Position numbers and translations under genes: made by a program. 64,000 nt of DNA, from NCBI RefSeq assembly GCF_000768705.1, contig NZ_AVPJ01000018.1:1-64000 (forward strand). The letters run 5' to 3'. Under the pieces are notes generated by a model. That model had not been told where the DNA came from. It worked only from the letters and a program-made list of their open reading frames with translations, and did not search any database. This DNA is from Knoellia sinensis KCTC 19936. Its GTDB lineage: Bacteria > Actinomycetota > Actinomycetes > Actinomycetales > Dermatophilaceae. Shown piece by piece: positions 35,466-56,435 of the stretch. The number at the start of each line of letters is the position of its first letter. The stretch's first letter is position 1.

Positions 35466-36965
35466 ATGCAGCTCACACCACAGCAGGAAGACCGCGCAGC
35501 AGGCGTGCTGCTCGGACAGGCCATCGGAGACGCGCTGGGCGTGCCGTACGAGTTCGCTGCGCCCCCGTCCGGCGAGCCGGGGATGGTGGGTGGCGGTCTG
35601 GGTGGCTTCGCGCCAGGCGAATGGAGCGACGACACCCAGATGGCCGCCTGCATCGCCCGGGTCTCCACAGGAGGCCGGGACCTCACGAGCGCGAGCGCGC
35701 TCGATGAGATCGCCACCGCCTTCGAGGATTGGTATGCCGGCCGACCGGCAGACGTCGGAAACCAGACTCGCGCGGTGCTGACCGGTGCGAAGCAGCGTGC
35801 GGGCACGCCTGCCGAGCGCCTGCGTGCCGCGAGTGCTGCGTTCACGGCACGCACGGCACACGCAGCAGGCAACGGCGCGCTCATGCGCACCGGCATCGTG
35901 GGACTGACTCGACTCCACGACCCTGCTGCCACTGCTGCCGCCGCACGCGCCATCGCCGAGCTCACTCACCCCGATCCCCTCGCGGTCGAGACCTGCATCC
36001 TCTGGGCGGAGGCGGTCCGTGTCGCCGTGCTGGAAGGGCGCTTCGACCTCGCCGCTGGCGTCCGCCTTCTGGCGCCGGAACGTCGCGACGATTGGCTCGC
36101 CAGGATCGAGGGTGCGACTGGTGCTGAACCGAAGGTCTTCTCCCCCAACGGGTTCACCGTGCCGGCCATGCTGTGCGCGTGGGCAGCCATCACGTCAACC
36201 GAGGACGCAAGTGGGTCTCCTGAGCACGTGCAGCGCGCATTCACGGCTGCGGTGCACGCAGGCAACGACACGGACACGGTGGCGGCGATTGCTGGCGCGC
36301 TGCTCGGCGCCCGCTATGGGGTGACGGGGCTGCCGGCGCGCTGGCGCCGGAGCGTTCACGGCTGGCCCGGACTTCGGGGAGCCAACCTGCTGGCGATGGC
36401 GCTCACGACTGCGCGCCGTGACAACGATGAATCGCGCTGGCCGTCCGCGGCCCAGATGGACTACCGCGGCGATTTCGGTTCATCCGTCGCGATGGCCGTC
36501 CCCCACCCGTTCGACGAGGGCGTCCTGCTCGGCACCTGGCAGGACTTCCGGCACGTGGACCAGCTCGGCGTTGACGCAGTGGTCAGCCTCTGCCGCGTCG
36601 GCACCGATGACCTCCAAGCCGGTGTGGTGGCGCCCGAGAACCACGTGAGGGTCTGGCTCATCGACAGCGACGACCCCAAGGCGAACCAGCACCTCGATTT
36701 CGTCCTCGACGACACGGCCGACGTCGTCAGGAGACTTCGCGCGGAGGGCAAGCGGGTGCTCCTCCACTGCGTCGCAGCCCAACAACGCACGCCCAGCGTG
36801 GCAGTCCGGTACGCAACGAAACTCGGCGTGGACGCGACCGTTGCCGCACGAGCGATCACATCCGGCCTGCCCAGTGTTCGCGGATTCGGACTCGTGTGGA
36901 GCACCGCGCTGGGAGGCTCACCAGCCAGAACGATCTCATCGACGAACAACGGGAGGCCCGAATGA
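35466..36965 (+). CDS. ADP-ribosylglycohydrolase fused to a phosphatase-like domain
   Basis: This 499-residue protein has an N-terminal ADP-ribosylglycohydrolase domain (about 5-300): GVLLGQAIGDALGVPYE, WSDDTQMA (first metal site), GNGALMRTG, and AGNDTDTVAAIAGALLGA (second metal site). The C-terminal part (about 335-480) has HCVAAQQRTPSVAV, the HCX5R signature of dual-specificity phosphatases. The nearby Asp in LDFVLDD could be the general acid. It would free ADP-ribose from proteins, RNA or DNA, supplying the NrtR signal. Ribosome site AGGAGG lies 6 bases before the ATG. Its stop overlaps the next gene. Confidence 0.85.
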   Translation: MQLTPQQEDRAAGVLLGQAIGDALGVPYEFAAPPSGEPGMVGGGLGGFAPGEWSDDTQMAACIARVSTGGRDLTSASALDEIATAFEDWYAGRPADVGNQTRAVLTGAKQRAGTPAERLRAASAAFTARTAHAAGNGALMRTGIVGLTRLHDPAATAAAARAIAELTHPDPLAVETCILWAEAVRVAVLEGRFDLAAGVRLLAPERRDDWLARIEGATGAEPKVFSPNGFTVPAMLCAWAAITSTEDASGSPEHVQRAFTAAVHAGNDTDTVAAIAGALLGARYGVTGLPARWRRSVHGWPGLRGANLLAMALTTARRDNDESRWPSAAQMDYRGDFGSSVAMAVPHPFDEGVLLGTWQDFRHVDQLGVDAVVSLCRVGTDDLQAGVVAPENHVRVWLIDSDDPKANQHLDFVLDDTADVVRRLRAEGKRVLLHCVAAQQRTPSVAVRYATKLGVDATVAARAITSGLPSVRGFGLVWSTALGGSPARTISSTNNGRPE

Positions 36966-41724: not shown

Positions 41725-42100
41725 TGTCTCTGGCCCCAAGCGAGCGGCAGAGTTGCGACAGCTGCTCCGGTTCCATGCACCGTGCCTGGCGCGGTTCAGC
41801 GAGTTCGCCTGGACTATGGCAAGAAGGGTCATGCCGCTGCCCACTCCCCCACGCACCTCGACCCGGTTGATCAGTCGAGTGACCTTGAGGATCGTCGCCT
41901 GCTCCACAGTCAGCCGGTCGGCGCGATCCTGCTGTTCGCGCGCCTCGGCCAGGACGCTGCGCTGCAGGAGTCCACGCCCCGTGAGGATGTCGATGATGAG
42001 GTCGCAGTCCTCCTCCTGCGACGGCACGCGGTGGCCACTCTCCTACATCTTCGGTATGTCCAACGGCACGCCCGACATGTCCTACACCTTGGATTCCGGG
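41725..42100 (-). pseudogene. Decayed middle part of a second NERD helicase
   Basis: The minus strand encodes sequence matching residues about 150-250 of the helicase at 32237-33910, such as RADRLTVEQATILKVTRLIN and then RVEVRGG. About 50 bases (cacctcgacccggttgatca and on) are identical. Damage is clear. A TAG (42043-42045) replaces a Gln codon, a codon is inserted in PSQEEDC, and Walker A GGAGSGKT has become GGVGSGMT. It lies directly between the macro-SIR2 gene and the large operon at 42189. Confidence 0.85.
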
Positions 42101-42188: not shown

Positions 42189-45100
42189 ATGGGAATGCAG
42201 GGCTGGACCCGAAGTGACAGCACGCTCGCGGCCGTTGTCGAGGAGCAGACCGAGGTCTGTCTTAACGTGTACCGGGAGGACCCGAGCCGTGTCGTTCAAG
42301 ACGCCAACAATGAACGACGCATCTCACAGGGGGGTTACGCCACTCGACAACTTGAGGAACTGCTGCAGAACGCCGTCGATGCCGCGCGCAGGGGCGGGTC
42401 GCAAGTGGAGGTGCTGCTAACTCCGGCGGCGCTGTACGTGGCCAACGATGGCGAGCCCTTCGATGCGGCCGGGATTCGCTCCGTCATGGCCTCGGACATG
42501 TCAGCCAAGGACGACGACCGCATCGGCAAGTTCGGCATTGGATTCAAGTCGATTCTGGCCGTGTCTAGCGAGCCGAAAGTGTTCAGCCGCTCAGTCTCCT
42601 TCGCCTTCGACAAAGACTGGGCGGAGAAGCAACTTCAAGCAGCGGGATTCGAGGCAGCGCACTATCCCACGATGCGCCTGGCCAAGGTGCTCGATCCGGT
42701 CCAAGACGGTTCCGCGCGGGACGCGTACCTGAAAGAACTCATGCAGTGGGCGACCACGGTCGTGGTCGCACCGCTTTCAATCGATGCAATGCCCTTGGCC
42801 AAGCGGCTGAACGACTTCCCTCCTGAGTTCGTACTGTTCTCCGCTCACATCGAACGAGCCCGACTTCGTAATGAGGTCGAGTCCGCCGACGGCGAGCGCA
42901 AGGTCGCCCCTTCGGACCGGACTGTCACCCGAGAAGTCGCGGATGATGGGTTCGTCACCCTCCGCGGCGGGCAGATGCCGACAGTCTGGTCGTTGGCACG
43001 CACGATGGTTCACCCGACTGCTGCGGCACTTAAGGAAGCGGGTCACGTCGCTGCCCGAGAGGCAGTCGAAGTTCAGTACGCCGTCAAGTTCCCACCAGGC
43101 GTTGGCCTCGGTCGCTTCTGGGCCTACTTCCCCACGCAGTTCGTCACGACAATGTCGGGGATCGTCAACGCACCTTGGAAACTGAGCGACGACCGGCTGG
43201 GGCTACTTGAGGGAAGATTCAACGACGAGTTGCTGGCAGTGGTCCCTCGACTTGTCGCCGAGGCGCTGGCCAGATTCAGCGGAACCGAGCATGTGGTGGA
43301 GGCCCTGGACGCTCTGCCCTCACGTGGTGGTGAACTGGGGCGCAAGGAGGCTCGAAATTGGGTCGATGAGGCGTTGAACAAGCCGGTCTTCGAGCACATG
43401 CGCACGGTTCCCAGTCTGCCGAACGGAATGGGGGTCCTTCGACGGCCAAGCGATCTCGACTGGATCGGCGAGGGGCCCGGCGAGTGGCTCACTGCGTGGT
43501 CTCAGATCCCCGGAGCTCCCGTCGAAGATTGGCTGCACCCCGACGCGTACAAGACGCAGGAGCAGCGAGTCAAGGTGTCGCGGCTGATGGGCTCGGGCGT
43601 GGGAGCCGACCTACCGGCCGGGGCTGCTGGCGTCGACGAGTGGCTCGAGGCGCTGGTCCGCGACCGCACCGTGGAGTCCTCGGCCCACGCTATTCACCTC
43701 GCTGCGCGGATGTTCCGGGACGCCAAGGCAATGTCGACTCTCGAGGCAGGCACCAGATTCGTTGCAGAGATCGAGAGGGCCAAGATCATTCGTCTCGACG
43801 ACGGCGACCTCAAGGCCCCCCTGCGTGGCCGGGTCTTTGTGCGAGTCGAGGGACAGGTGGAGTCGGACGTCGCGTTCGTCGACCCTGAACTGGCCCGGAT
43901 GCCTGGCATCGTGGAGGACTTGGCGACCCTAGGTGTCGTCCTGATGGACAAGAGCGGGGAGCTCCGCAAGCTCCTTACTCGCTGGAAGTCGTCCAGTGGG
44001 CGGATCCGTCCCGAGCAGGCTTGGCCGGAGATCTGGAGGGCGCTTCGACCCCTGCCCCTCGAGGCGGGAATAGACATCCTGCGCGAGGACTTGGGCAACG
44101 ACCTCACGGCCGACATGCACGTACGCACAGCCTCGGGCAAATGGGTGGCCGCAGACCAAGCATTTCTGGGGGGGCGGGTGGTTCCTGCTGACGGATCGCG
44201 CGATCGTGACTTCCTGATCGATCCACGGGAGCACTTCCACGACGAGCCTCTACTCAAGGCCATTGGCGCAGTCGATGCGCCGTCGTATCGGGCGGATGCG
44301 CCGATTGAGGCATGGTTCAAGGCTTGGATCGGCAAGGCAGAGCAGTCCTTCATCGAGCACGCTGGGGCACGGATCGATCCTGACAATGTCTCAGTCGACA
44401 TCCCCGCCACCCTCCCTTGGCCGTTGGACGTGGTGAGGCGCATGAGTGACCAAGCCAAGGCGGCCGTCACGAAGTTGCTGCTTACTGCCGGGCTACCCCA
44501 CGGGGTGCTCGTGCGACACCGTTCGGTGGCCACCTACGGGCGCATTCATGTGATTGCGCCAGAGACTCACTTCCTGAGTTTGCACGGTCGGTTCGAGACC
44601 ACGTTCGGCTGTTTGCCTCCTAGTGAGACGCTCCTTGCGAGTGACGACCTCGACCCTCGATTTTTTCCGACCGTTGAGTTGAGCACCGACGTGGCCGAGA
44701 AGCTGGGGGTCCCAACTGAGCTGGATGCCTTCCCCGAGGAAGCGTGGGTGAATTGGAAGGCGGTCGTAGACCGGCGTCGGACTCTCGAGGACGACGCTCT
44801 CAGGGCGTCCTTTTACGCGTGGCTGCCGGGACACCACGAGGCCGAGAGCCTCGTGGTTCGGGTCGGTCGGCAACGAATGGACGTGCCCGTCGGGAACATC
44901 GGGGTCACCTCCAGCCAAGTCACGTACGAGTCCTTGGTCGACGCCGCGATTCCTGCCCTCCTCGTGGAGGACTCCGAGGATCTCGAGCGCTTCGTCACAT
45001 CTTGGGCGATGCCGCGAGGTGAGGACCTCCTCCAGGAGGAGATCATCTCTGAGCCCGCGGGAGAGCCTGTTTATCTCACTGATGCCTTCCCACCACTCAA

Positions 45101-46931
45101 ACTTCGCTTGGACCCAACGGACCAAGACCTGCTGATCCAACCCGTGGCGCGACTCGTCCGGATGACAGCTACACCCGAGGGTCAGGTGGCTCGTCCCCTT
45201 CGATGTCGGCGGGACGGTGGCACCCTGTTCCTGACCGCTGACGAGCCCCACCAGCGGCTCGCGCAGGTGTCCGAACTGTTGAGACTCGAACTTGATTCCG
45301 CCGAGATCCAGGAAGTGCTCGGGTCTATGGAGCGCGCTGCCTCGGACAAGCTGCGTACCAAGATCAAGCGCTGTCGGGACGAGAACGAACGCTTGGTGAC
45401 TGCAGTCGGGATCGACGCGTTGAGACGGAGCGTTCCCGCCCAGGCTCTTGCAGTCCTCGAGGAGAGAGACGGAGGCGTCGCTGCGGAGGAGGTCGCCGAG
45501 CTGGCTCGTGCCGTTCATGGCGTAGGCATCCTCAAGCAACTGCGGCCTGCTTTGGACGAGAACGGTCTAGAACCCCCACGGGAGTGGTCGGGGCGTCGCG
45601 TGACCCGGGTATGGGTGGACGGTTTGGGATTCCCGGCCGACTGGGCCGGTTTCCCCGGCAGCCAGAGGGCAGCCGTGGAGATGATCGATGGCCCTGCGGT
45701 GCTCAAGCCACTGCATGACTATCAAGAATTCGTCACCGAACGGATCGAAGCATTGCTCAAGGGGGTGGGTGCCGATCGTGGCATGGTCTCGCTGCCCACC
45801 GGAGCGGGCAAGACCCGCGTGACGGTGGAGGCCTTGGTGAAGGCTGTCCGAATTGATCTGCTAGGACACGATCGGCCCTTGGTATGGATAGCCCAGACCG
45901 ACGAACTGTGTGAGCAAGCGGCGGAAACGTGGAGCTACGTGTGGCGCGCAATCGGACCCCAAGTGCCCATGCGGCTGGGACGACTATGGGGAGGAAACGA
46001 GGTCCCTGAGGAACCCGGCACATTCCAGGTGGTCATCGCCACGATTGACAAACTCCATTCGGTGCAGAAGCGAGCGTCCGACGAGTACGGCTGGCTGCGG
46101 GAGCCGTCAGTGGTGGTCATCGACGAAGCGCATGGATCAGTGTCGACGTCCTATACGCAGGTGCTCGAATGGATGGGACGCTCCGGCCGAGGACGCAGCA
46201 AGGAGGGGCGCAGACCACTTCTCGGCTTGACCGCCACGCCGTTCCGTGGCAACTCCGAGGGAGAGACGGAACGACTCGTCGGCCGGTACGACGGCAATCG
46301 TTTGGACCGAGGGGCCTTCCGAAAGGAGGATCCCTACGAGGAACTACAGGAGATGGGGGTTCTCGCCCAAGTTCGACACGAGATATTGGATGGTGTCGAT
46401 GTCCAGCTCAGCGCCGACGATAAGTCGGAGATTCAGAAGATGGGGCGCCTACCCGCATCGGTCTCCGAACGGCTCGGCGCCGACGCAGCTCGTACCCGAC
46501 GCGTCGTGGAATCCATTGCCTCGCTTCCCGATGACTGGACCGTGCTGGCATTCGCACCATCGGTCGAGAACGCGCGCGTATTGGCTGCTCTGCTCGCTCA
46601 CCGGGGCGTACCTGCAGTGGCGATCTCGGCAGACACGGAGCCTGCTGCACGCCGTCACTATGTTGAGGAGTTCAAGGCTGGGCGGATCCGGGTACTCACG
46701 AACTTCAACGTTCTGACCCAGGGCTTCGATGCCCCCAAGGTGCAGGCCGTGTACGTCGCCCGGCCCACCTTCAGCCCAAACGTCTACCAACAGATGATCG
46801 GGCGAGGACTGCGCGGACAGCTCAACGGTGGCTCCGAGGAGGTGCTGATTGTGAATGTGCGAGACAACTTCGATCAGTACGGCGACCTCTTGGCGTTCAA
46901 CGCGTTCGAATACCTCTGGACCAAACGATGA
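42189..46931 (+). CDS. Hsp90-like ATPase fused to SF2 helicase
   Basis: This 1580-residue protein has an N-terminal GHKL/sacsin-like ATPase (about 45-200): EELLQNAVDAARRGG (N-box), VANDGEPFDAAG, and DDRIGKFGIGFKSILAVS (G-box). The C-terminal 410 residues are an SF2 DEAH helicase: MVSLPTGAGKTRVTVEAL (Walker A, about 1199), VVIDEAHGSVS, LLGLTATPFRG, VLTNFNVLTQGFDAPKVQAV and MIGRGLRG. The 900 residues between are unassigned. It is the first gene of four overlapping genes; its stop overlaps the next as ATGA. Such fusions occur in antiphage islands; the role is inferred. Confidence 0.85.
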   Translation: MGMQGWTRSDSTLAAVVEEQTEVCLNVYREDPSRVVQDANNERRISQGGYATRQLEELLQNAVDAARRGGSQVEVLLTPAALYVANDGEPFDAAGIRSVMASDMSAKDDDRIGKFGIGFKSILAVSSEPKVFSRSVSFAFDKDWAEKQLQAAGFEAAHYPTMRLAKVLDPVQDGSARDAYLKELMQWATTVVVAPLSIDAMPLAKRLNDFPPEFVLFSAHIERARLRNEVESADGERKVAPSDRTVTREVADDGFVTLRGGQMPTVWSLARTMVHPTAAALKEAGHVAAREAVEVQYAVKFPPGVGLGRFWAYFPTQFVTTMSGIVNAPWKLSDDRLGLLEGRFNDELLAVVPRLVAEALARFSGTEHVVEALDALPSRGGELGRKEARNWVDEALNKPVFEHMRTVPSLPNGMGVLRRPSDLDWIGEGPGEWLTAWSQIPGAPVEDWLHPDAYKTQEQRVKVSRLMGSGVGADLPAGAAGVDEWLEALVRDRTVESSAHAIHLAARMFRDAKAMSTLEAGTRFVAEIERAKIIRLDDGDLKAPLRGRVFVRVEGQVESDVAFVDPELARMPGIVEDLATLGVVLMDKSGELRKLLTRWKSSSGRIRPEQAWPEIWRALRPLPLEAGIDILREDLGNDLTADMHVRTASGKWVAADQAFLGGRVVPADGSRDRDFLIDPREHFHDEPLLKAIGAVDAPSYRADAPIEAWFKAWIGKAEQSFIEHAGARIDPDNVSVDIPATLPWPLDVVRRMSDQAKAAVTKLLLTAGLPHGVLVRHRSVATYGRIHVIAPETHFLSLHGRFETTFGCLPPSETLLASDDLDPRFFPTVELSTDVAEKLGVPTELDAFPEEAWVNWKAVVDRRRTLEDDALRASFYAWLPGHHEAESLVVRVGRQRMDVPVGNIGVTSSQVTYESLVDAAIPALLVEDSEDLERFVTSWAMPRGEDLLQEEIISEPAGEPVYLTDAFPPLKLRLDPTDQDLLIQPVARLVRMTATPEGQVARPLRCRRDGGTLFLTADEPHQRLAQVSELLRLELDSAEIQEVLGSMERAASDKLRTKIKRCRDENERLVTAVGIDALRRSVPAQALAVLEERDGGVAAEEVAELARAVHGVGILKQLRPALDENGLEPPREWSGRRVTRVWVDGLGFPADWAGFPGSQRAAVEMIDGPAVLKPLHDYQEFVTERIEALLKGVGADRGMVSLPTGAGKTRVTVEALVKAVRIDLLGHDRPLVWIAQTDELCEQAAETWSYVWRAIGPQVPMRLGRLWGGNEVPEEPGTFQVVIATIDKLHSVQKRASDEYGWLREPSVVVIDEAHGSVSTSYTQVLEWMGRSGRGRSKEGRRPLLGLTATPFRGNSEGETERLVGRYDGNRLDRGAFRKEDPYEELQEMGVLAQVRHEILDGVDVQLSADDKSEIQKMGRLPASVSERLGADAARTRRVVESIASLPDDWTVLAFAPSVENARVLAALLAHRGVPAVAISADTEPAARRHYVEEFKAGRIRVLTNFNVLTQGFDAPKVQAVYVARPTFSPNVYQQMIGRGLRGQLNGGSEEVLIVNVRDNFDQYGDLLAFNAFEYLWTKR

Positions 46932-48709
46932 CGGAATGCGTGCTCGACCATGCTCAGTCCACCGCCGCGGCGGTTGATCCAGATCAACGACAGATCGTGT
47001 TGGCGGGACCGGGCGCCGGGAAGACTCAGGTGGTGTCCGCCCTCGTGGAGAACCTCGTCCTCGACGCGCAGGTCGACCCTTTGCACGGGCTGCTCGTTCT
47101 CAGCTTCTCCAACGCGGCAGTGCACGCCGTCGACGCTCGCTTGCGGGCACGCGACGTTCCGCCCGTCAGCGTCAGAACGATCGACTCGTTGGCGGCACGG
47201 ATCGTCGGCGACGCCGGCGATGACGACCTAGCGCAGATGGGGTTCGACGCACGCATAGCGCGAGCGACCGAGCTGATTCGGGAAGACGAGTGGCAGGACT
47301 GCGAAGACCTCGAGCACGTGGTGATCGATGAGGTTCAGGACGTGGTCGGACCCCGGGCCGACTTCGCAGCAGCGTTGATTCGCGCCCTCCCCGCGGACGC
47401 CGGATTCACCCTACTGGGCGACCCTGCCCAAGCGATCTACGACTTCCAGTTGCGGGAGGGCGAGGACTCACGCCCGTCCAGCACCACGTCGTCGGATTTG
47501 TTGGACGCAGCGAGGGCTCTTGGGGCCGCGACCGTCGCGCTGACAGGGCAATACCGAGCACAGTCGCGAGACGCACTTGGGGCGGCGGCCCTGCGCTTAC
47601 CATCCGGCGAGCCACCAGATCCCGAGGACGTCGATGACTTCTGGGATGACGTCGTCCACGTCGGTGGCCTCGACTCAGTCGTGGGGCACATGGAACGAAC
47701 AGACGGCAGCGTGGCCATGCTCACCCACACCAACGGTCAGGCAATGCTTGCTGCCGGCGAACTACGCAGGCGCGGAATCGCCGCCGAGGTTCGCAGGAGT
47801 GCTCGCCAACGAGTCCTCGACGCCTGGATCGCGAACGCCCTCGCCACCGCCGACGCGAGCTCCGTGGGCAAGAAGGACTTCATGAAGCTGCTCGACGAGC
47901 AGGAGGTCGAGCTGGACGGGCACGCTGCTTGGCGCGCGCTTCGCCATGCGGCCGGCGCGAAGGGACGAGAGATGGACATCCCGTCCCTGGTATCAAGGCT
48001 GCGGGCCCGCGGCGTCGTTCCACCCGATCTGTTGGACAAGCCGGGCGGTCGGGCAACCGTATCGACCACCCACCGCGCGAAGGGGCTGGAGTACGACGAC
48101 GTGGTTCTGATGGAGTTCCCTTCGCGCCGCCAGGAATCACAGGATCCTGAGGACCGCGCGAGGGTTCGATTCGTCGCGCTCACCCGTGCTCGCAGGTTCC
48201 TGCTTCGAGCGGATGGACCCGACGACCGGGGTCTGCGCAAGGTCTGGGCGCCGGGATCTTCCGGACCGCGTTGGATCGTGGGGGGATGGAAGCAGTGGCA
48301 AACACGCAGTTTCGAGATGCGCGTCGACGACGTGGACGTCTCTACCCCTCCGGGCGACGAGTCACAGCTGGTACAGCAGTTTCTCCGGCACGAAAACGTG
48401 GCGGGCGCCGAGGTGACTCTTCGACCCCACCCACGGTTGTCCACCCTGACGACCCCCGTGTTCTCCGTGCTTATGGGATCCACCGAGGTGGCGCGGACCT
48501 CACACCAGTTCGGAGTCGATTTCGCGGCGCGTGTCGGTTCACTGGAAAGAAAGCGTCGTGGGTGGCCCACCCTCAGCGGTGGGTACGTGGAGTGTGTCGC
48601 AACTGCCGTGGGAGAGCGGACCGGCAAGGGCGCTGGGCGCAATGGCCTCTGGCTGATCCCGGTGATCTCCGGCCTACTGACGATCGAATGGAGCGACCTC
48701 GATGACTGA
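46928..48709 (+). CDS. UvrD/Rep-like SF1 helicase
   Basis: This 593-residue helicase shows motif I LAGPGAGKTQVVSALVE, DEVQDVV (II), GDPAQAIYDFQ (III), LTGQYRAQSRD (IV), STTHRAKGLEYDDVVLMEF (V) and RFVALTRARRFLL (VI), spread over the first 420 residues. The C-terminal 170 residues have no recognised domain and may bind partners. It is short for UvrD and lacks most of the 1B/2B insertions. Its ATG overlaps the previous stop by 4 bases, and it overlaps the DrmA gene by 8, so it is made with both. Confidence 0.9.
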   Translation: MTECVLDHAQSTAAAVDPDQRQIVLAGPGAGKTQVVSALVENLVLDAQVDPLHGLLVLSFSNAAVHAVDARLRARDVPPVSVRTIDSLAARIVGDAGDDDLAQMGFDARIARATELIREDEWQDCEDLEHVVIDEVQDVVGPRADFAAALIRALPADAGFTLLGDPAQAIYDFQLREGEDSRPSSTTSSDLLDAARALGAATVALTGQYRAQSRDALGAAALRLPSGEPPDPEDVDDFWDDVVHVGGLDSVVGHMERTDGSVAMLTHTNGQAMLAAGELRRRGIAAEVRRSARQRVLDAWIANALATADASSVGKKDFMKLLDEQEVELDGHAAWRALRHAAGAKGREMDIPSLVSRLRARGVVPPDLLDKPGGRATVSTTHRAKGLEYDDVVLMEFPSRRQESQDPEDRARVRFVALTRARRFLLRADGPDDRGLRKVWAPGSSGPRWIVGGWKQWQTRSFEMRVDDVDVSTPPGDESQLVQQFLRHENVAGAEVTLRPHPRLSTLTTPVFSVLMGSTEVARTSHQFGVDFAARVGSLERKRRGWPTLSGGYVECVATAVGERTGKGAGRNGLWLIPVISGLLTIEWSDLDD

Positions 48710-51700
48710 TCTGAATCCTTGGTATGCAGCCAGGGAGATCATGGTGGACGCCCTCGTGGCGGACCTTCACGGCTCTGAGGATGACGAACTCCTTACCGAG
48801 AATCCCCTCCGTCGCTTTCTTGTGGGGATCCTTCATCCTCGCAGCGGGGACGCGGTGGAGGTCGATCGAGTTGGCGACGACGCAGATCAGGATGCTGGCA
48901 CCGCGCCTGACGCCGACTTCGATCCAGGCGTGTCCTTCTCGCATATGCGCTATCCCTCGACGATCGGCTTGACGGCCGGCATCAAGCGCGGGACCACTGG
49001 GATCCAAGTAAGCGTCCAGACGGATAGGTACGAGGAGGTGGACGAGGGCGAAAGTAAGCTTTGGAAGCGACGTCCGTTCGGCCCCTTCGAGGTCGACATC
49101 TCGACCAGTGCCCCAGCCGTTGGCGAGACCCTACTGTGCGAAGGTCTCGCGCTTCGCCATGTCGTGCGCGCTCCCCACGATGGCGTGCAAAGCGTCACCC
49201 TCGTGCTCGTGAACACCCTCGCCTCGCCCACAGAGGGCGGTCGGGATAGGCACTGTTGGTTCCGGCCATCGATCGTCGTACGTACGCTTGACGGCGAGTT
49301 TGTGGACCGACGACCTGAGCACCTGCTGGAACACATGGACGCCGACGCACTCAGTGCTGAACTGCTGCATCGGGCCCAGCGCCACTTGGCCGTCGGCCAC
49401 GGGGTGGCCGTCGATTGGCAGGAGACCGTATCGGTGCGGGCGATCCGCACCACGTTCTTCCCAAGGCACGATCTTCCACTGGCGGAAGCCAGCCGCCCGG
49501 ACCTCTCAGCCATCGCGATGACCGAGCTTGCAGACGGCTCTCTCTCTCCATTGCATGGTTTGGTCGACGCATACGAGACCTGGATCACGGACAAGGAAGT
49601 TCGCGATGTGCCCTCACTGAGCGGCGTGCACTTGGAGACGGCGCAGCGCCACCTCAACGAGGCTCGTGGTGCAGCACACCGCATGCGCCGCGGAATCGGA
49701 ATCATCGAGTCCGAGCCACTCGTGGGGCGTTCCTTCCGTGTCATGAACGCCGTGATGCAGATGCAGCGAGAGCACCAGGAGATGCTGCGCGGGGTCCTTG
49801 ACACCCCCGGGACGCCCGTCGTTGGTGAATGGCGTCCGTTTCAAATGGCCTTCATCCTGATGAACATCGAGGGTTTGAGCGATCCTGGCAGTGACGAACG
49901 GGATCTGGCCGACGTGCTGTGGTTCCCGACAGGTGGTGGGAAGACCGAGGCTTATCTGGGTCTCATCGCCCTCGCCATGGTCCACCGGCGGCTACGTGGT
50001 GCCGGCGCCGACGGTCGAGGTGCCGGCGTCGCAGTCATCATGCGCTACACACTTCGCCTGCTCACACTGCAGCAGTTCGAACGCGCTGCTGGACTCATCT
50101 GTGCCTTGGAGGTGTGGCGACGCGCGGAGCCGGACATGCAGGAGAAGGAACCCTTCACGATCGGTCTCTGGGTCGGTCAAGGCGCAACCCCGAACTCGAT
50201 CGCCGACGCGGCCAAGGCACTGCGCCGACGCCGAGGGAACGATGACCCAGGGGACCTTGGTGATCCCGTTCAGCTGCTCCGTTGCCCATGGTGCGGATCT
50301 CGGCTGACGGAGGACCACTACGAGGTGGACAGGAGGGCCAACCGCCTCACCGTCAGGTGTCCCGGCACCGATTGCGTTTTCCGGTTAGGCGATGGGCTCC
50401 CAGTCGCATTGGTCGACAGCGACGTCTACTCAGTGAGGCCCTCGCTAGTCATCGGCACTGTGGACAAGTTCGCCATGCTGGCCTGGCGTGGCGAAGCAGG
50501 CAGCCTGTTTGGTCGCGGAACTGACGCTCCTCCGGACCTCGTGGTCCAGGACGAGCTCCATCTCATCAGTGGGCCTTTGGGCACCTTGGTGGGGCTGTAC
50601 GAAACTGCCATCGACCATTTGGCGACCGATCGGACCACCGGAACCCGCCCGAAGGTCATTGCATCAACAGCCACCATCCGCAGAGCCAAAGAGCAGGTTC
50701 GGTCCGTCTTCGCGCGAGAGGCGCGCCAGTTTCCACCGCCCGGCATTGACGCGTCCGACTCCTTCTTCGCGGTCGATGCCCCGCGCGAGTCCAAGGGGAC
50801 CCGGCTATACGTCGGCGTGATGGCCCCGGGCACCAGCCATGCAACTCTGACCGTCCGCACGTACGCCGCGCTGCTGCAGGCCGCCTTGGCATCGGAGATG
50901 GACGATGCCGTGCGTGATGCGTATTGGACGCTTCTCGGATACTTCAACAGTCTGCGCGTCCTGGGTGCCGCCTTCATCGCGACGATCGATGACGTTCGAG
51001 ACCGTATCAAGGTAGTCGCAGGCCGCCGTGAGGAGGTGCCCCGCGTGACCCGGGATCCCCGCGAGTTGACCTCACGCAAGAAGTCGAGTGAGATCCCGGT
51101 GGAGCTCGAAGCTCTCCAGACTGCCTATCCGTCACCGCTCAGCCCCGATACGGTGCTGGCCACGAACATGATCTCGGTGGGGGTCGACGTCGACCGTTTG
51201 GGTCTGATGGTCGTATCGGGCCAACCCCAGACGACATCGGAGTACATCCAAGCGACGAGCCGGGTGGGACGGCGTCACCCCGGGCTGGTCGTAACGCTCT
51301 TCAACGCCGGGCGGTCGCGTGACCTCTCGCACTACGAAGCGTTCACCACCTACCACCGCTCGCTCTATCAACAGGTTGAGGCGACGGGGGCAACACCGTT
51401 CGCGTCTCGGGCTCTGGACCGTGGCCTGCACGGGCTTCTCGCAGTCTTGGCCCGCCATCTCGTACCCGGCGCCGCCTCGGACGACGCGGCGGTGGTGCCC
51501 GTCCAAGGTGGGAGGAAAGATCTCGATGCCGTATCGCAGACCATCTTGGATCGTGTTCGCTCCGTTTCCCCCGACGCTGAGGAGGACGTGGAGGACGCTT
51601 TGGAAGCGCTGATCGGAGCGTGGGAGGACGCCGTTGCCTCTGGCGAGGTGACGAAGTACGCCGGTTGGAGATCCTCCCTAGATGCGCTCCTGGTACCGGC

Positions 51701-51860
51701 AGGAGCGTCTCTGAGCGACGAGTTGGGTGAACCCCTTACGGAGATCTTCCCTCCCGGCCGACCGGCTTGGGCCACATTGACCAGTCTGCGGAACGTGGAC
51801 CGGGAATGCAGCCTGAGGTTGGTGTCAGCTCAGAGGAGAGCCAGGAGGGACGAGAAATGA
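48702..51860 (+). CDS. drmA: DrmA-type helicase (DISARM-related)
   Basis: This 1052-residue helicase has a DrmA-like layout. An N-terminal 370 residues without known fold is followed by ADVLWFPTGGGKTEAYLGLI (Walker A, about 408), then VVQDELHLISGPLG with DELH in place of DEAH, IASTATIRRA (III), and SRVGRRHPGLVVTLFNAGRS (VI). MQREHQEMLRGVL and EWRPFQMAFILMNIEGL are also DrmA-like. In DISARM this protein contacts DNA with DrmB and restricts phage. Overlaps with the helicase before (8 bases) and DrmB after (ATGA) show co-translation. Confidence 0.88.
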   Translation: MTDLNPWYAAREIMVDALVADLHGSEDDELLTENPLRRFLVGILHPRSGDAVEVDRVGDDADQDAGTAPDADFDPGVSFSHMRYPSTIGLTAGIKRGTTGIQVSVQTDRYEEVDEGESKLWKRRPFGPFEVDISTSAPAVGETLLCEGLALRHVVRAPHDGVQSVTLVLVNTLASPTEGGRDRHCWFRPSIVVRTLDGEFVDRRPEHLLEHMDADALSAELLHRAQRHLAVGHGVAVDWQETVSVRAIRTTFFPRHDLPLAEASRPDLSAIAMTELADGSLSPLHGLVDAYETWITDKEVRDVPSLSGVHLETAQRHLNEARGAAHRMRRGIGIIESEPLVGRSFRVMNAVMQMQREHQEMLRGVLDTPGTPVVGEWRPFQMAFILMNIEGLSDPGSDERDLADVLWFPTGGGKTEAYLGLIALAMVHRRLRGAGADGRGAGVAVIMRYTLRLLTLQQFERAAGLICALEVWRRAEPDMQEKEPFTIGLWVGQGATPNSIADAAKALRRRRGNDDPGDLGDPVQLLRCPWCGSRLTEDHYEVDRRANRLTVRCPGTDCVFRLGDGLPVALVDSDVYSVRPSLVIGTVDKFAMLAWRGEAGSLFGRGTDAPPDLVVQDELHLISGPLGTLVGLYETAIDHLATDRTTGTRPKVIASTATIRRAKEQVRSVFAREARQFPPPGIDASDSFFAVDAPRESKGTRLYVGVMAPGTSHATLTVRTYAALLQAALASEMDDAVRDAYWTLLGYFNSLRVLGAAFIATIDDVRDRIKVVAGRREEVPRVTRDPRELTSRKKSSEIPVELEALQTAYPSPLSPDTVLATNMISVGVDVDRLGLMVVSGQPQTTSEYIQATSRVGRRHPGLVVTLFNAGRSRDLSHYEAFTTYHRSLYQQVEATGATPFASRALDRGLHGLLAVLARHLVPGAASDDAAVVPVQGGRKDLDAVSQTILDRVRSVSPDAEEDVEDALEALIGAWEDAVASGEVTKYAGWRSSLDALLVPAGASLSDELGEPLTEIFPPGRPAWATLTSLRNVDRECSLRLVSAQRRARRDEK

Positions 51861-53575
51861 AAGCCTTCGATGCAAGGGTTCGACAGAGTCAACTGATCTC
51901 GACATTCGGCGTGGGCTCGATCATGCCGGCCGGAGACAAAAGCTACGTGGTGTGTGGGCTCGACGAGTGGGACGAGCGCCTCTGTGCCCCGGTCGAGGAA
52001 CCGCGACTGGCACGATCGCTCGGCGTCCACGTCTTCAGGGCGCCCGCGAGTGGGAGCAGGCGAGGTGACGTACCTGTGGCACGCTTTCCCACCTTCCATT
52101 ATTGCCCCGATTGCAGGCGCTTGGACTCGTTCTGGAAGTTCGACGCCACGCGGATGGTCTGCCCGGACTGCGTGCGTGAACTGACCCCGTCGAGGTTCGT
52201 CGCCTGTTGCGAGAACGGCCACATGGAGGACTTCCCGTACTTCAACTGGGTGCACCGACCGGTAGATGGCGTCATCACATGGAAGGAGGGAAGCACGCAC
52301 AAGATGTCGTTGAGTACACGCGGGACCTCCTCGTCCCTAGGCGACATCATCGTGTCGTGCTCGTGCGGCGTTCGACCCCGCGATCTCGAGGGCGCATTCT
52401 CACGGCACGCTGTGGCCGAGGTGAAGTCATGTAGTGGCGCGCGACCGTGGCTCCCTGGTGCGGAGCCTGAAACCTGCGCCCAGCCCCTGCGCGCACTGCA
52501 GCGTGGGTCCTCGAACGTGTGGTTCGGAGCGGTCCGTTCCAGCATCTCAATTCCGCCGTGGTCGAGTCCCAGCGCTCGATACGTGACACGGCATTGGGAC
52601 GTGTTCCAGCATCAGACAGACGACCAGATTCGAGCCGCAGCCATCGGGTCCGCCGCACGTGACCGCACGATAGATGTCGAGGCAGTGCTGCAGGTGACCC
52701 GGCAGCGTCGCGACGTCGAGGCCGCCTCTGTCCCCACCGAGGCAGAACTACGTGCAGAGGAGTACATGGCGCTGAGGGACGGCAACGTTGGCGGAGCCAC
52801 CGACGCGTTCCACTGCCAGCAGGTCGATGTGGATCCGTCGATTTCGGACGTGGTGGCCCAAGTCTCCAAGGTGAGCAGGCTGCGAGAGGTACGCGCCCTA
52901 CACGGCTTCGCACGCGTGTCACCAACAGGCTCCTCTTCCGATGCGCCCCGGCTCGCCTCGTTGAGCATCAAGCGCTTGCACTGGCTGCCCGCCGTGGAGG
53001 TCTTTGGCGAAGGCGTCTTCGTGAGGCTTGACCCCGATGCGCTGCAACGTTGGGAGGAGACCCCCTTTGCCTCCCAACGCATCGGAGCATTGACGGAGGC
53101 CGTCCGGCGCCGCGCGCAGGAGTCGGGGGCGAACGCAATCGAGCCGCCCAGTCCCAGATTCGTCGCGGTTCACACGGTCGCCCATGCGGTCCTCAAAGAA
53201 CTGAGCCTCGATGCCGGCTACCCGACCGGCGCCTTGCGTGAGCGCATCTTTGCGGATGGGAGCCAGGCCGGGTTCCTGATTTACACGGCGTCCTCGGATG
53301 CAGCCGGAAGCCTGGGAGGTCTCGCAGCTCTTGCCGAGGAGGCGCGCTTTGCCGCGGTGTTCGAGTCGGCCACATCGAGGTCCGGCTGGTGCTCCAACGA
53401 TCCAGTGTGCGCGGAGTCTGGTCCGTCAGGAAGTGACGGACTGAACTTGGCTGCCTGCCACGCGTGCCTCTTGTTGCCCGAGACAAGTTGCGAGGAGCGC
53501 AACATGTATCTGGACCGCGTCTCTCTGGTGGGCGACCCGCGCGACTCCTCCGGAGGTCTCCTAACCGGGATCTGA
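51857..53575 (+). CDS. drmB: DrmB-type DUF1998 protein (DISARM-related)
   Basis: This 572-residue protein opens VRQSQLISTFGVGSIMPAGD, as DrmB proteins do. It has a zinc-finger-like part (FHYCPDCRRLDSF, MVCPDCVRELTP, ACCENGHMEDFPYFNWVH). The DUF1998 domain at the C-terminus is clear: FVAVHTVAHAVLKELSLDAG, IYTASSDAAGSLGGL, then CSNDPVC and ACHACLLLPETSCEERN. DrmB binds DrmA and DNA in DISARM. The ATG at 51857 overlaps the drmA stop. It ends the operon, 38 bases before a convergent vsr-like gene. Confidence 0.88.
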   Translation: MKAFDARVRQSQLISTFGVGSIMPAGDKSYVVCGLDEWDERLCAPVEEPRLARSLGVHVFRAPASGSRRGDVPVARFPTFHYCPDCRRLDSFWKFDATRMVCPDCVRELTPSRFVACCENGHMEDFPYFNWVHRPVDGVITWKEGSTHKMSLSTRGTSSSLGDIIVSCSCGVRPRDLEGAFSRHAVAEVKSCSGARPWLPGAEPETCAQPLRALQRGSSNVWFGAVRSSISIPPWSSPSARYVTRHWDVFQHQTDDQIRAAAIGSAARDRTIDVEAVLQVTRQRRDVEAASVPTEAELRAEEYMALRDGNVGGATDAFHCQQVDVDPSISDVVAQVSKVSRLREVRALHGFARVSPTGSSSDAPRLASLSIKRLHWLPAVEVFGEGVFVRLDPDALQRWEETPFASQRIGALTEAVRRRAQESGANAIEPPSPRFVAVHTVAHAVLKELSLDAGYPTGALRERIFADGSQAGFLIYTASSDAAGSLGGLAALAEEARFAAVFESATSRSGWCSNDPVCAESGPSGSDGLNLAACHACLLLPETSCEERNMYLDRVSLVGDPRDSSGGLLTGI

Positions 53576-53612: not shown

Positions 53613-54044
53613 CTACCTCGTCCGCGCGCGTAAGGCGCGCTCGACTCGGTCTGCCGCCTCGCGAATTGCCTCGTGCTCCCAAACGCGGACGACTTGCCAG
53701 CCGAGGTTCTCGAGGTGCTGAGTCGTCTCAGCATCGCGCTGACGGTTCGTGTCCAGTTTCTGCGCCCACCACTTGGCGTTGGTCTTCGACGGGACACAGT
53801 GCTCGGGACAGCCATGCCAGAAGCAACCGTCTATGAACACGGCCACCCTCTGACGGGGGAAGGCAACGTCAATCGAACGTCGCGTGAGGCCAGGCACGGG
53901 GACGCCAATCCTGAATCTACGACCACGGCTGTGCAGCAATCGCCGCAACGCGACTTCCGGCGTGGTGTCCCGAACGCGCTGCCTCGACATCCGACTCCGA
54001 ACCGCAGCACTCCTCGGGCGGGGCATGCCACAAGTATCGAACAC
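53613..54044 (-). CDS. Very short patch repair endonuclease (Vsr-like)
   Basis: This 143-residue protein nicks 5' of T in T:G mismatches left by deamination of 5-methylcytosine. Vsr motifs: SRQRVRDTTPEVALRRLLHSRG, RSIDVAFPRQRVAVFIDGCFWHGC (catalytic Asp, zinc Cys and His) and PEHCVPSKTNAKWWAQKL. An ATG at 54026 is another possible start. It is divergent from the cytosine methyltransferase at 54107, its usual partner, which suggests that the two came together with the restriction gene. Confidence 0.9.
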   Translation of the reverse strand: MFDTCGMPRPRSAAVRSRMSRQRVRDTTPEVALRRLLHSRGRRFRIGVPVPGLTRRSIDVAFPRQRVAVFIDGCFWHGCPEHCVPSKTNAKWWAQKLDTNRQRDAETTQHLENLGWQVVRVWEHEAIREAADRVERALRARTR

Positions 54045-54106
54045 GATGTCAGACCCCCGCCGTAGCGTGCGTGTCAGATCAAGGACCGCGTACGCAGGCG
54101 TGCAGA

Positions 54107-55231
54107 ATGGAGCAACACACCCATGGCAAGGACGGACCAGACGTGAGCGACCGGCACAGTTTCACCTTCATTGACCTCTTCGCCGGCATCGGTGGCACAC
54201 GCCTTGGATTCGAAGCTGCAGGCGGTCAGTGTGTGTTCACATCGGAATGGAACAGCTTCGCCCAGCGAACTTACGCGGCGAACTTTCCCGACAGCCAGCC
54301 CGGCCCGGCCTCCGTGGTCGATGCAAACATCGTTGGCCATTCACTCGTAGGCGATATCACTGAGATCCGCAACCCGCAAAAAGAGATCCCGCCGCACGAC
54401 GTCCTCCTCGCGGGATTCCCTTGCCAACCCTTTAGTATCGCCGGCGTCTCCAAGAAGAATTCGCTCGGCCGCCCGCATGGGTTTCAAGACCCTACTCAAG
54501 GAACGCTGTTCTTCGAGATTAAGCGCATCTTGGAGGCTCACCGGCCGCGCGCCTTTCTCTTGGAGAACGTCAGAAACCTGGTCTCGCACGACCGCGGACG
54601 CACCTTTGACGTCATCCGTCACGCGCTCGAAGACGAGCTCGGATACAACGTGCAGTGGCGCATATTGGATGCCAGTGCGTGGGTGCCCCAAGGCCGTCGG
54701 CGCATCTACATCGTCGGCTTCGACGGTGCCACCGACTTCGACTTTGAGACCCTTACACCACCGGACGCGCACCCAACCATGTCGTCCGTGCTGCACCCCG
54801 AGGACGGTTCGGAGAGATCTGAGGAGCCGTTTACCCTCGGGCCAAGTGCACTTGTCAATCCCAAATACACACTCAGTCCCAAGCTTTGGAATTACCTACA
54901 AGGATATGCGCGTAAACATCGCGAAGCTGGAAACGGGTTCGGTTTTGGACTTGTCTCCGGACAGGACGTCTCCCGCACCCTCTCCGCCCGGTACTATAAG
55001 GACGGATCAGAGATCTTGGTCTCGCAAGGCGACGGTCACCTGCCACGACGGCTAACGCCCCGCGAGTGCGCTCGCCTCATGGGATTCCCTGAGGACTACA
55101 AAATCCCCGTGAGCGACACCCAAGCTTACAAGCAATTCGGTAACAGCGTCGTAGTCCCTGTGGTCGAGTCGATAGCCCGCCACATGGCGCCCCACGTCAC
55201 AACGACGATCCAACGAGCGGCGGCCAGTTGA
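54107..55231 (+). CDS. C5 cytosine DNA methyltransferase
   Basis: This 374-residue methylase contains motif I FIDLFAGIGGTRLGFEAAGG, motif IV AGFPCQPFSIAG (catalytic Cys), motif VI LLENVRNLV, motif VIII WVPQGRRRIYIVGF, motif IX RRLTPRECARLMGFPEDY and motif X KQFGNSVVVPVVESIARHM. The target-recognition region lies about 240-300. Vsr and an EcoRII-like nuclease next door suggest methylation in a CCWGG-like site, as does DrmMII of class 2 DISARM. ATG 54107 or GTG 54143 may start it. The GC content drops here. Confidence 0.93.
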   Translation: MEQHTHGKDGPDVSDRHSFTFIDLFAGIGGTRLGFEAAGGQCVFTSEWNSFAQRTYAANFPDSQPGPASVVDANIVGHSLVGDITEIRNPQKEIPPHDVLLAGFPCQPFSIAGVSKKNSLGRPHGFQDPTQGTLFFEIKRILEAHRPRAFLLENVRNLVSHDRGRTFDVIRHALEDELGYNVQWRILDASAWVPQGRRRIYIVGFDGATDFDFETLTPPDAHPTMSSVLHPEDGSERSEEPFTLGPSALVNPKYTLSPKLWNYLQGYARKHREAGNGFGFGLVSGQDVSRTLSARYYKDGSEILVSQGDGHLPRRLTPRECARLMGFPEDYKIPVSDTQAYKQFGNSVVVPVVESIARHMAPHVTTTIQRAAAS

Positions 55232-55232
55232 C

Positions 55233-56435
55233 GTGGACGGGCGCCTTCGCGAAACGTTCAGTGGAGTGGCCGCGAAACGTCTGAGTGCGGTCGAAGCCGA
55301 TCGGCTCGTTTCCAACCAGCACGAATTCAACGGAGTCCAGGCTCTCAAGGATCTGCTAGGGACAAGCGAACGACGCTTTCCCACACGCTATGTCTACCTT
55401 CACGACGACGAAGACGGGCCATCGATCGTCGAATTCGTAAGCACGTCGCTATGGTACGACGCACGCGCGGCGCACCCCACGCGCAGCGAGTTTCGTCTGT
55501 ATTTTCCTGAGAACGAGCCCATGGGCCTAGCATCGGAGAGTGACTTCTGCTTCTTAGCGCTTGGGCACGACGGTCTTCTCACGATTGTTATCGCTCCCGA
55601 GGATAGCCAAGCGGCCCAGCGCCTGGACATCCTCTTCCAAACGCACCTGACCAGCTCGAAACCACAAGCCTTCCGGGTAGTCACAATGGGTTCAGCGCGT
55701 GATCGTGGGATCGACATGATTGACGTTACGCTGATCGAAGCGCTTGGGGGAACGCCTGAGCCGGAGAACCCCAGCGCGCTCGCTCGCCTCATTGAACAAT
55801 TTGGTGGCAACTATCCGTTGCCAAGCACCATGGCCTTCACTGGATTCACTCGGGAGCTCTGCATTGACGCTGACCCCGTCAGCGAGCCGGATGCGACGCT
55901 CAGCCTATGGTTCTCGACCACAAACGATCTCTTTCTCACCTATGAACGACATGTACTTCAACCAATTCTCGACCAAGAGTTTGCAAATCTCTCACATATA
56001 GATGTCGACAGATTCTTCTCCGTAGCGACGCGCTTTAAGAACTCGCGGTTCAGTCGTTCGGGCGCTAGTTTCGAGCATCACTTGGCGGCTCTCTTCACAG
56101 CAAATCAGGTTTCCTTCCATCAGCCGCGGCATAAATATCCAGACGGGGCCAAGCCAGACTTCATTGTCCCCTCGGACGATGCGTACAGAGCAATGAACAG
56201 TTCAGTCGCTCTGGTGGCAGCCAAGACGTCCGTGAAGGAGCGCTGGCGCCAGATCGCAACTGAGGCCCGCCACGTGCCAACCCGATACCTAGCAACAATG
56301 GACCCCGCAATATCCGTATCTGCCGCCGATGACATGGCAAAGAACAATCTCCAGTTGGTTCTGCCAAAACCGTTGAACGTAAGACTAGCGACCCTGTCCT
56401 ACGCAGAATTGATCAACCGGCTCAAAGTTCTGTGA
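55233..56435 (+). CDS. EcoRII-like type II restriction endonuclease
   Basis: This 400-residue protein has an EcoRII C-terminal type catalytic domain (about 265-390). RFKNSRFSRSGASFEHHLAA, then KYPDGAKPDFIVPSDDAY and VALVAAKTSVKERWRQIATE carry the PD...(D/E)xK catalytic residues. The N-terminal half (about 1-200) would be the effector/DNA-binding domain. EcoRII recognises CCWGG and needs two sites. The GTG start lies 1 base after the methylase stop. Base composition is AT-richer than the rest of the window, a sign of separate arrival. Confidence 0.85.
   Translation: MDGRLRETFSGVAAKRLSAVEADRLVSNQHEFNGVQALKDLLGTSERRFPTRYVYLHDDEDGPSIVEFVSTSLWYDARAAHPTRSEFRLYFPENEPMGLASESDFCFLALGHDGLLTIVIAPEDSQAAQRLDILFQTHLTSSKPQAFRVVTMGSARDRGIDMIDVTLIEALGGTPEPENPSALARLIEQFGGNYPLPSTMAFTGFTRELCIDADPVSEPDATLSLWFSTTNDLFLTYERHVLQPILDQEFANLSHIDVDRFFSVATRFKNSRFSRSGASFEHHLAALFTANQVSFHQPRHKYPDGAKPDFIVPSDDAYRAMNSSVALVAAKTSVKERWRQIATEARHVPTRYLATMDPAISVSAADDMAKNNLQLVLPKPLNVRLATLSYAELINRLKVL

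Follow-up and report, generated by a model that had tools for sequence, protein, structure and literature searches.

What kind of system is encoded by four overlapping genes of Knoellia sinensis KCTC 19936 that set DrmA and DrmB, proteins of the anti-phage system DISARM, behind two other predicted motor proteins? The genes occupy positions 42189-53575 of a 64,000 nt stretch of contig NZ_AVPJ01000018.1, which we call the window, and a preliminary description of this DNA had proposed that they may form an undescribed or only recently described DISARM relative. From sequence comparisons, we consider it reasonably likely that the four genes are the core of an undescribed class of DISARM-like anti-phage system, and the set is probably defensive. 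The observations that point this way are the gene order, the correlated divergence of the four proteins, the preservation of motifs for ATPase and helicase activity, and a valine of DrmA that matches V1296 of the Serratia protein.

Four overlapping genes encode DrmA, DrmB and two further helicase proteins

The four-gene cassette consists of the following genes:

42189-46931, + strand: a giant protein of 1580 amino acids, with a sacsin/Hsp90-type GHKL ATPase and a RadD-like superfamily 2 (SF2) helicase
46928-48709, + strand: a UvrD/GajB-like superfamily 1 (SF1) helicase of 593 amino acids (Pfam, PADLOC)
48702-51860, + strand: DrmA, a YprA-type SF2 helicase in its short form, 1052 amino acids (NCBIfam, PADLOC)
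51857-53575, + strand: DrmB, the DUF1998/MZB zinc-domain partner, 572 amino acids (NCBIfam, Pfam)

Consecutive genes overlap by 4 bases (46928-46931), 8 bases (48702-48709) and 4 bases (51857-51860), at the positions given in the preliminary description; we take the ATG at 51857 as the start of DrmB and did not adopt the longer TTG frame of a mechanical list of open reading frames. The domains claimed earlier also hold: ResIII and Helicase_C with a sacsin N-terminal ATPase in the giant, UvrD-helicase in the second protein, DrmA in the third, and DrmB with MZB in the fourth. No promoter-like sites and two terminator-like sites were found by scanning, in both cases fewer than in shuffled sequences.

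DrmA passes the NCBIfam DISARM_DrmAS model (NF038325) narrowly, with 959 bits against a cut-off of 950, and matches the PADLOC DrmA model with E 2.6e-235; a BrxHI model of PADLOC is matched weakly (E 0.0011). A profile of 13 DrmA sequences aligns with residues 132-1305 of Serratia DrmA (7s9v), and since the alignment starts at residue 132, the window DrmA is missing the N-terminal part of class 1 DrmA. As we read this alignment, an acidic stretch of the window protein stands at the place of the Serratia trigger loop, residues 176-232 (PMC9142583). Residue V1032 of the window protein aligns with Serratia V1296, which the same study proposes as a methylation sensor (PMC9142583), and this valine is invariant across the 13 DrmA proteins. 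DrmB reaches 463.9 bits with the NCBIfam DrmB_fam model (NF038324; cut-off 240) and carries the Pfam MZB domain, and a profile of 13 DrmB sequences matches chain B of 7s9v (E 2e-131). We also considered a Vsr-like nuclease at the C-terminus of one relative's DrmB (L078), and rejected it, as there was no Pfam match and only weak BLAST similarity; the best BLAST match outside itself (E 0.002) was the C-terminus of an ARMADA-like YprA protein in genome G278.

Among the PADLOC matches listed for 10 window proteins (for the UvrD protein the best 25 of 40 models, for a downstream methylase the best 25 of 61), we saw none to DrmC, DrmD, DrmE, DrmMI, GajA or PglX, and no adenine methylase model was seen among these 10 proteins. 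A cytosine methylase is present downstream, however, which means that the locus does have a methylase. PADLOC, Pfam and NCBIfam models revealed no nuclease domain in any of the window's four core proteins.

The giant protein joins an Hsp90-like ATPase to a RadD-like helicase

The giant is laid out as an ATPase module in its ~350 N-terminal residues (the outer limit being set by reading conserved motifs), a middle spanning residues ~380-1130, and a RadD-like SF2 helicase at ~1130-1580. The NCBIfam model P_loop_sacsin matches residues 53-131 with 74.3 bits (cut-off 50), and the RadD model matches residues 1195-1558 far under its cut-off. Against the PDB, a profile of 22 giants found lizard sacsin (5v47, E 8.7e-9) and RadD (6jde, E 8e-40), the repair helicase that is the closest solved match to the C-terminus. 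The motifs that we take to be the N-box, G2 box, Walker A, DE-H and motif VI are retained in all 22 aligned giants.

The middle, described earlier as lacking an assignment, stays so: residues 381-1130 scanned alone gave no PADLOC match at E 0.1, TmtA models included. Comparison of six segments of the middle by hhalign (15 pairs) gave a best pair with E 0.0012 and a probability of 7.9%, which is only suggestive of internal repeats. Structure prediction for residues 1-1175 from 3 sequences yielded a mean predicted local distance difference test score (pLDDT) of 40.2. Elsewhere, on plasmids L032 and L172, a stand-alone helicase like the giant C-terminus adjoins an ATP-binding protein and a phospholipase-D gene; judging by their annotation, the genes beside this helicase resemble a phosphorothioation system.

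The second protein matches the Pfam UvrD-helicase domain (E 1.9e-17) and the PADLOC GajB model (E 1.2e-21), and the top PDB match of a 12-sequence profile is DNA helicase II (4c2u); it resembles PcrA/UvrD/Rep as well as GajB. Its last 169 residues gave no Pfam or PADLOC match, and residues 170-375 and 425-593, scanned separately, gave no PADLOC match. The predicted structure (2 sequences) has a mean pLDDT of 47.6.

Gene order is kept in relatives of the giant

The preliminary description had named a lack of linkage between the first two genes and drmA/drmB in other genomes as a result that would refute the idea; we found the linkage almost throughout. In the 22 loci with a giant whose neighbourhoods we analyzed, which come from 7 family codes and one metagenome-assembled genome, a helicase gene, DrmA and DrmB stand directly behind the giant in 21. 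The gene between giant and DrmA encodes a UvrD relative in 19 loci and a NERD-type helicase in 2. Because relatives with the full giant keep this order across 7 family codes, the arrangement is not due to chance.

The searches behind these loci differed in breadth. Besides the window giant, a protein search of 396 genomes of the phylum gave three more of full length. Among 394 genomes of the class, a profile search gave 18 full-length giants in 17 genomes (window included). Among 58 relatives, we obtained the window copy, a further full-length giant in G781 and a giant in G779 that is broken across two frames. A search of genome contigs with one protein gave 2 loci and a viral search one full-length giant; neither the plasmid search nor the phage search gave a record covering 80% of the giant. 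Two further loci stand outside the 22: L041, which is frameshifted and whose cassette runs past the end of the record, has pieces of UvrD and DrmA adjoining the giant, and in L085 only 200 bases of contig remain beyond the giant. Clusters in G182, G608 and G690 that seemed to lack UvrD are an artefact of the simple gene caller, as tblastn shows UvrD there.

In the two loci with a NERD-type helicase, the protein of G704 (L079:9204-10721) has a NERD nuclease domain by Pfam, that of G779 (L081:9306-10844) clusters with it, and both have RTasNERD-Hel as their best PADLOC model. An extra SF1 helicase follows DrmB in some loci, with a NERD domain in L034:15386-17299 and a match to a NERD+UvrD model in L066:16208-18289. 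Upstream on the opposite strand, a block led by a helix-turn-helix protein of ~700 amino acids recurs (L065, L066, L067, L069, L070, L071, L072); the L065 protein matches PDC-M33A, and a PDC-M33A-matching protein in L118 has sigma-70 domains.

The one exception to the gene order is G278, in which UvrD, DrmA and DrmB are together and the giant lies ~27 kb away beside ARMADA-II-like genes. That cluster (L036, L084, L117) encodes a helicase matching DrmD/BrxH, a type IIG methylase, a DruE-like YprA protein and a UvrD protein.

The four proteins diverge together

Pairwise protein distances, uncorrected for host phylogeny, are correlated among the four genes with r of 0.83-0.96 (20-22 loci), and none of 2000 permutations gave values as high. 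In a DrmA tree of 42 rows made by a quick method, 20 of the 22 cassette DrmA proteins form one branch, with a Shimodaira-Hasegawa-like approximate likelihood ratio (SH-aLRT) support of 99; two rows (L114 and L115), which are probably in the wrong frame (longest open frame; branch 6.3), lie outside the cassette branches. The DrmA proteins of G704 and G779 fall in another branch, among DrmA genes without a giant. Since the giant thus occurs with two DrmA branches, it joined DrmAB at least twice or was exchanged.

In the class sample of 394 genomes, the 18 strongest DrmA matches (at least 1303 bits; next 1066) all came from the 17 genomes that carry a giant of full length, although about half of these 18 sequences were part of the query model. 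At E 1e-60 or better, DrmA was found in 63 genomes: 17 of these have a full-length giant, G128 has no more than a stand-alone helicase resembling the giant C-terminus, and the other 45 have neither at this threshold. The sample also contains other DISARM-like sets, which include NERD or UvrD helicases.

We considered that the locus might instead hold two adjacent systems, with the giant and UvrD acting alone in the manner of TmtA or Gabija and DrmAB a separate neighbour. TmtA models do match residues 10-566 of the giant and GajB models match UvrD, and in G278 the giant is separated from DrmAB and adjoins ARMADA-II-like genes, one of which encodes a further UvrD. However, the genes overlap, their order is kept in 21 of 22 loci and their distances are correlated; moreover, the cassette-type UvrD of G278 stays with DrmAB, and no GajA was among the matches listed for the 10 window proteins. 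Thus, we regard two independent systems as quite unlikely.

The cassette has the surroundings expected of an acquired defence locus

The giant was not found in any of the 8 same-genus genomes searched, and in each of the 4 same-genus genomes compared, similarity breaks off sharply where nrdJ ends (58409), which suggests that this site is an insertion hotspot. The failure to find the giant in these 8 genomes and the sharp boundary at nrdJ are as would be expected of an acquired defence locus. A NadR-like gene was likewise not found in the 8 genomes, which is uninformative by itself, and we did not locate the left boundary of the insertion.

Upstream of the operon lie SIR2, PD-(D/E)XK and ADP-ribosylglycohydrolase genes. 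The last of these (35466-36965) has a weak dual-specificity phosphatase-like match at its C-terminus. Two pieces of the window, 41822-42061 and 33198-33436, both match the same place in L176, in parts that overlap, and may be remnants of one gene.

Might the operon serve DNA repair or a stress response, with no role in defence? RadD, UvrD and relatives of YprA/MrfA act in DNA repair, and among solved structures the giant C-terminus matches RadD best. Nevertheless, we think this explanation very improbable, as DrmA passes a DISARM equivalog cut-off, the giant was not found in the 8 same-genus genomes searched, and SIR2, EcoRII-type and GmrSD-type genes are among the neighbours.

Methylase, Vsr and restriction genes are linked but exchangeable

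Three genes directly downstream had escaped the preliminary description, which left its locus incomplete:

53613-54044, - strand: a Vsr-type nicking endonuclease (TIGR00632, 106.4 bits; cut-off 97.85)
54071-55231, + strand: a cytosine-5 (C5) DNA methyltransferase (Pfam DNA_methylase, E 6.6e-80)
55233-56435, + strand: an EcoRII-type restriction endonuclease (Pfam EcoRII-C, E 3.8e-36)

The methylase matches the PADLOC model MTase_II (E 3.9e-144) better than DrmMII (E 3e-133), and the EcoRII-type enzyme encoded next to it is probably its partner. By tblastn, 19 of 22 loci have a C5-methylase match no farther than 10 kb away, those in G639, G704 and G278 being weak and partial (29-31% identity); by TIGR00675 at E 1e-10, a C5-methylase is near the cassette in 17 of 20 genomes (not G182, G639, G704). 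In 15 of 20 genomes, a Vsr gene is found at most 10 kb from the cassette, compared to ~0.45% per genome by chance (for an assumed genome of 7 Mb), and 18 of 19 Vsr-bearing genomes have a single copy. For comparison, Vsr is within 10 kb of DrmA in 15 of 45 genomes that have DrmA and no giant (Fisher p 0.0028, uncorrected for kinship and with a narrower search range around DrmA than around the cassette). Thus, the link to Vsr is stronger with this cassette but not special to it.

A restriction-enzyme-domain gene adjoins the methylase in at least 6 loci, a lower bound as selected neighbours were scanned: the window has EcoRII, Pfam identifies an NgoMIV-type domain in G177, G599 and G781, the G648 gene clusters with those three, and G481 has an AspBHI N-terminal domain. 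Thus, the methylase, Vsr and restriction genes are linked to the cassette but exchangeable.

If the C5-methylase and Vsr were instead true parts of a restriction-modification-linked DISARM, Vsr would be its nuclease. The frequency of both genes near the cassette and the lower frequency of Vsr near DrmA in giant-less genomes are consistent with this idea, as is the interaction of MutL, another GHKL ATPase, with UvrD in mismatch repair (PMC2292703). However, distances of the core correlate weakly with those of the methylase (Dcm; 0.30-0.39) and of Vsr (0.14-0.27), and 15 of 45 other DrmA genomes also have Vsr nearby. Vsr may simply follow the methylase, since it corrects mispairs arising from deaminated 5-methylcytosine (PMC8011034). 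On balance, we regard a restriction-modification-linked DISARM as unlikely.

A DISARM-like core with two added motors could act by remodelling phage DNA

In the undescribed DISARM-like class that we favour, DrmA-DrmB might, as in Serratia DISARM, sense incoming single-stranded or 5'-overhang phage DNA that is unmethylated and move along it. The giant would close its Hsp90-like ATPase as a clamp on DNA or on the complex and drive the RadD-like motor, UvrD would unwind from nicks or ends, and the four proteins could jointly strip and block phage replication intermediates. As no nuclease domain was recognised in the core, any cutting would come from the exchangeable neighbours (Vsr, a restriction enzyme or a NERD domain) or from host nucleases. 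The C5-methylase linked to the cassette may serve to mark self DNA, or it could equally belong to an independent restriction-modification unit.

A bolder form of this model makes the giant the effector of a non-nucleolytic defence, in which an Hsp90/sacsin-type ATP clamp, fused to a RadD motor and loaded by DrmAB onto phage replication intermediates, would block phage DNA by remodelling instead of cutting it; this module would have joined two DrmAB branches (that of most loci and that of G704 and G779) and would stand beside an ARMADA-like cluster in G278. We put this form forward tentatively and judge it somewhat unlikely.

Several observations weigh against the four-gene core as a distinct class, or against the clamp. 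In G704 and G779 the giant is joined to a DrmA of another branch and so does not belong to a single DrmA lineage, and at the threshold used above 45 of the 63 DrmA-bearing class genomes lack it. The giant of G278 is apart from UvrD-DrmA-DrmB and has another UvrD beside it. The distance correlations may partly reflect host phylogeny, and the restriction-domain gene beside the methylase in 6 loci favours independent restriction-modification units. Finally, the models of the giant and UvrD (mean pLDDT 40 and 48) are too poor to back the clamp idea.

DISARM appears to manage without its nuclease DrmC (PMC9142583), which raises the question of its killing step. A natural class that keeps DrmAB, has no DrmC seen beside it and adds two motors would allow a direct test of this step. 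It would also place a sacsin/Hsp90-type ATPase and a DNA helicase in one polypeptide within an apparent immune operon.

Comparison with known systems

Several features are shared with DISARM: DrmA and a separate DrmB (DUF1998/MZB) exceed curated cut-offs, the OB-CON-DUF1998 part is on its own gene, and methylases are nearby. In contrast to DISARM, two other ATPase/helicase genes precede drmA and DrmA is of the short form. Within the limits given above for the matches listed, neither the DrmD and DrmMI of class 1 nor the DrmE of class 2 was seen in the window, nor was DrmC, and the phospholipase-D-domain matches of the genome are all on other contigs.

The cassette shares a GHKL ATPase, an SF2 helicase and Vsr and C5-methylase neighbours with the MORC/paraMORC restriction-modification systems, for which a MORC-specific motif in the S5 domain is described (PMC2292703). 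It differs in that a sacsin-like ATPase and a RadD-like helicase are here joined in one protein, and DrmAB is present. TmtA (presumably of the system named Tiamat) resembles the N-terminal part of the giant, to residue 566; the best model is covered at positions 6-411 of 1538, and the helicase part is outside the matches. Gabija is resembled in the GajB matches of UvrD, without its partner GajA among the matches listed.

As in ARMADA type II (PMC12458937), a YprA-type helicase and a GajB-like UvrD helicase share one operon. Relatives of ARMADA-like genes, found by gene clustering, lie within ~4 kb of the cassette in three loci, L075/L159 (G481), L077/L161 (G648) and L078/L162 (G639), and on the same contig in G278. 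The cassette differs in that DrmA and DrmB divide the YprA part between them and a GHKL-RadD giant is present. Identity with ARMADA is ruled out by gene content, as YprA is unfused and no BrxHII-like or PglX-like gene was seen among the 10 window proteins, save the weak match of DrmA to BrxHI.

We found no publication naming this gene set in literature searches that reached few subscription journals, and the suggestion of an undescribed DISARM relative is supported to that extent. PMC12458937 mentions "many uncharacterized DISARM-like" classes, to which the cassette would contribute one that is defined.

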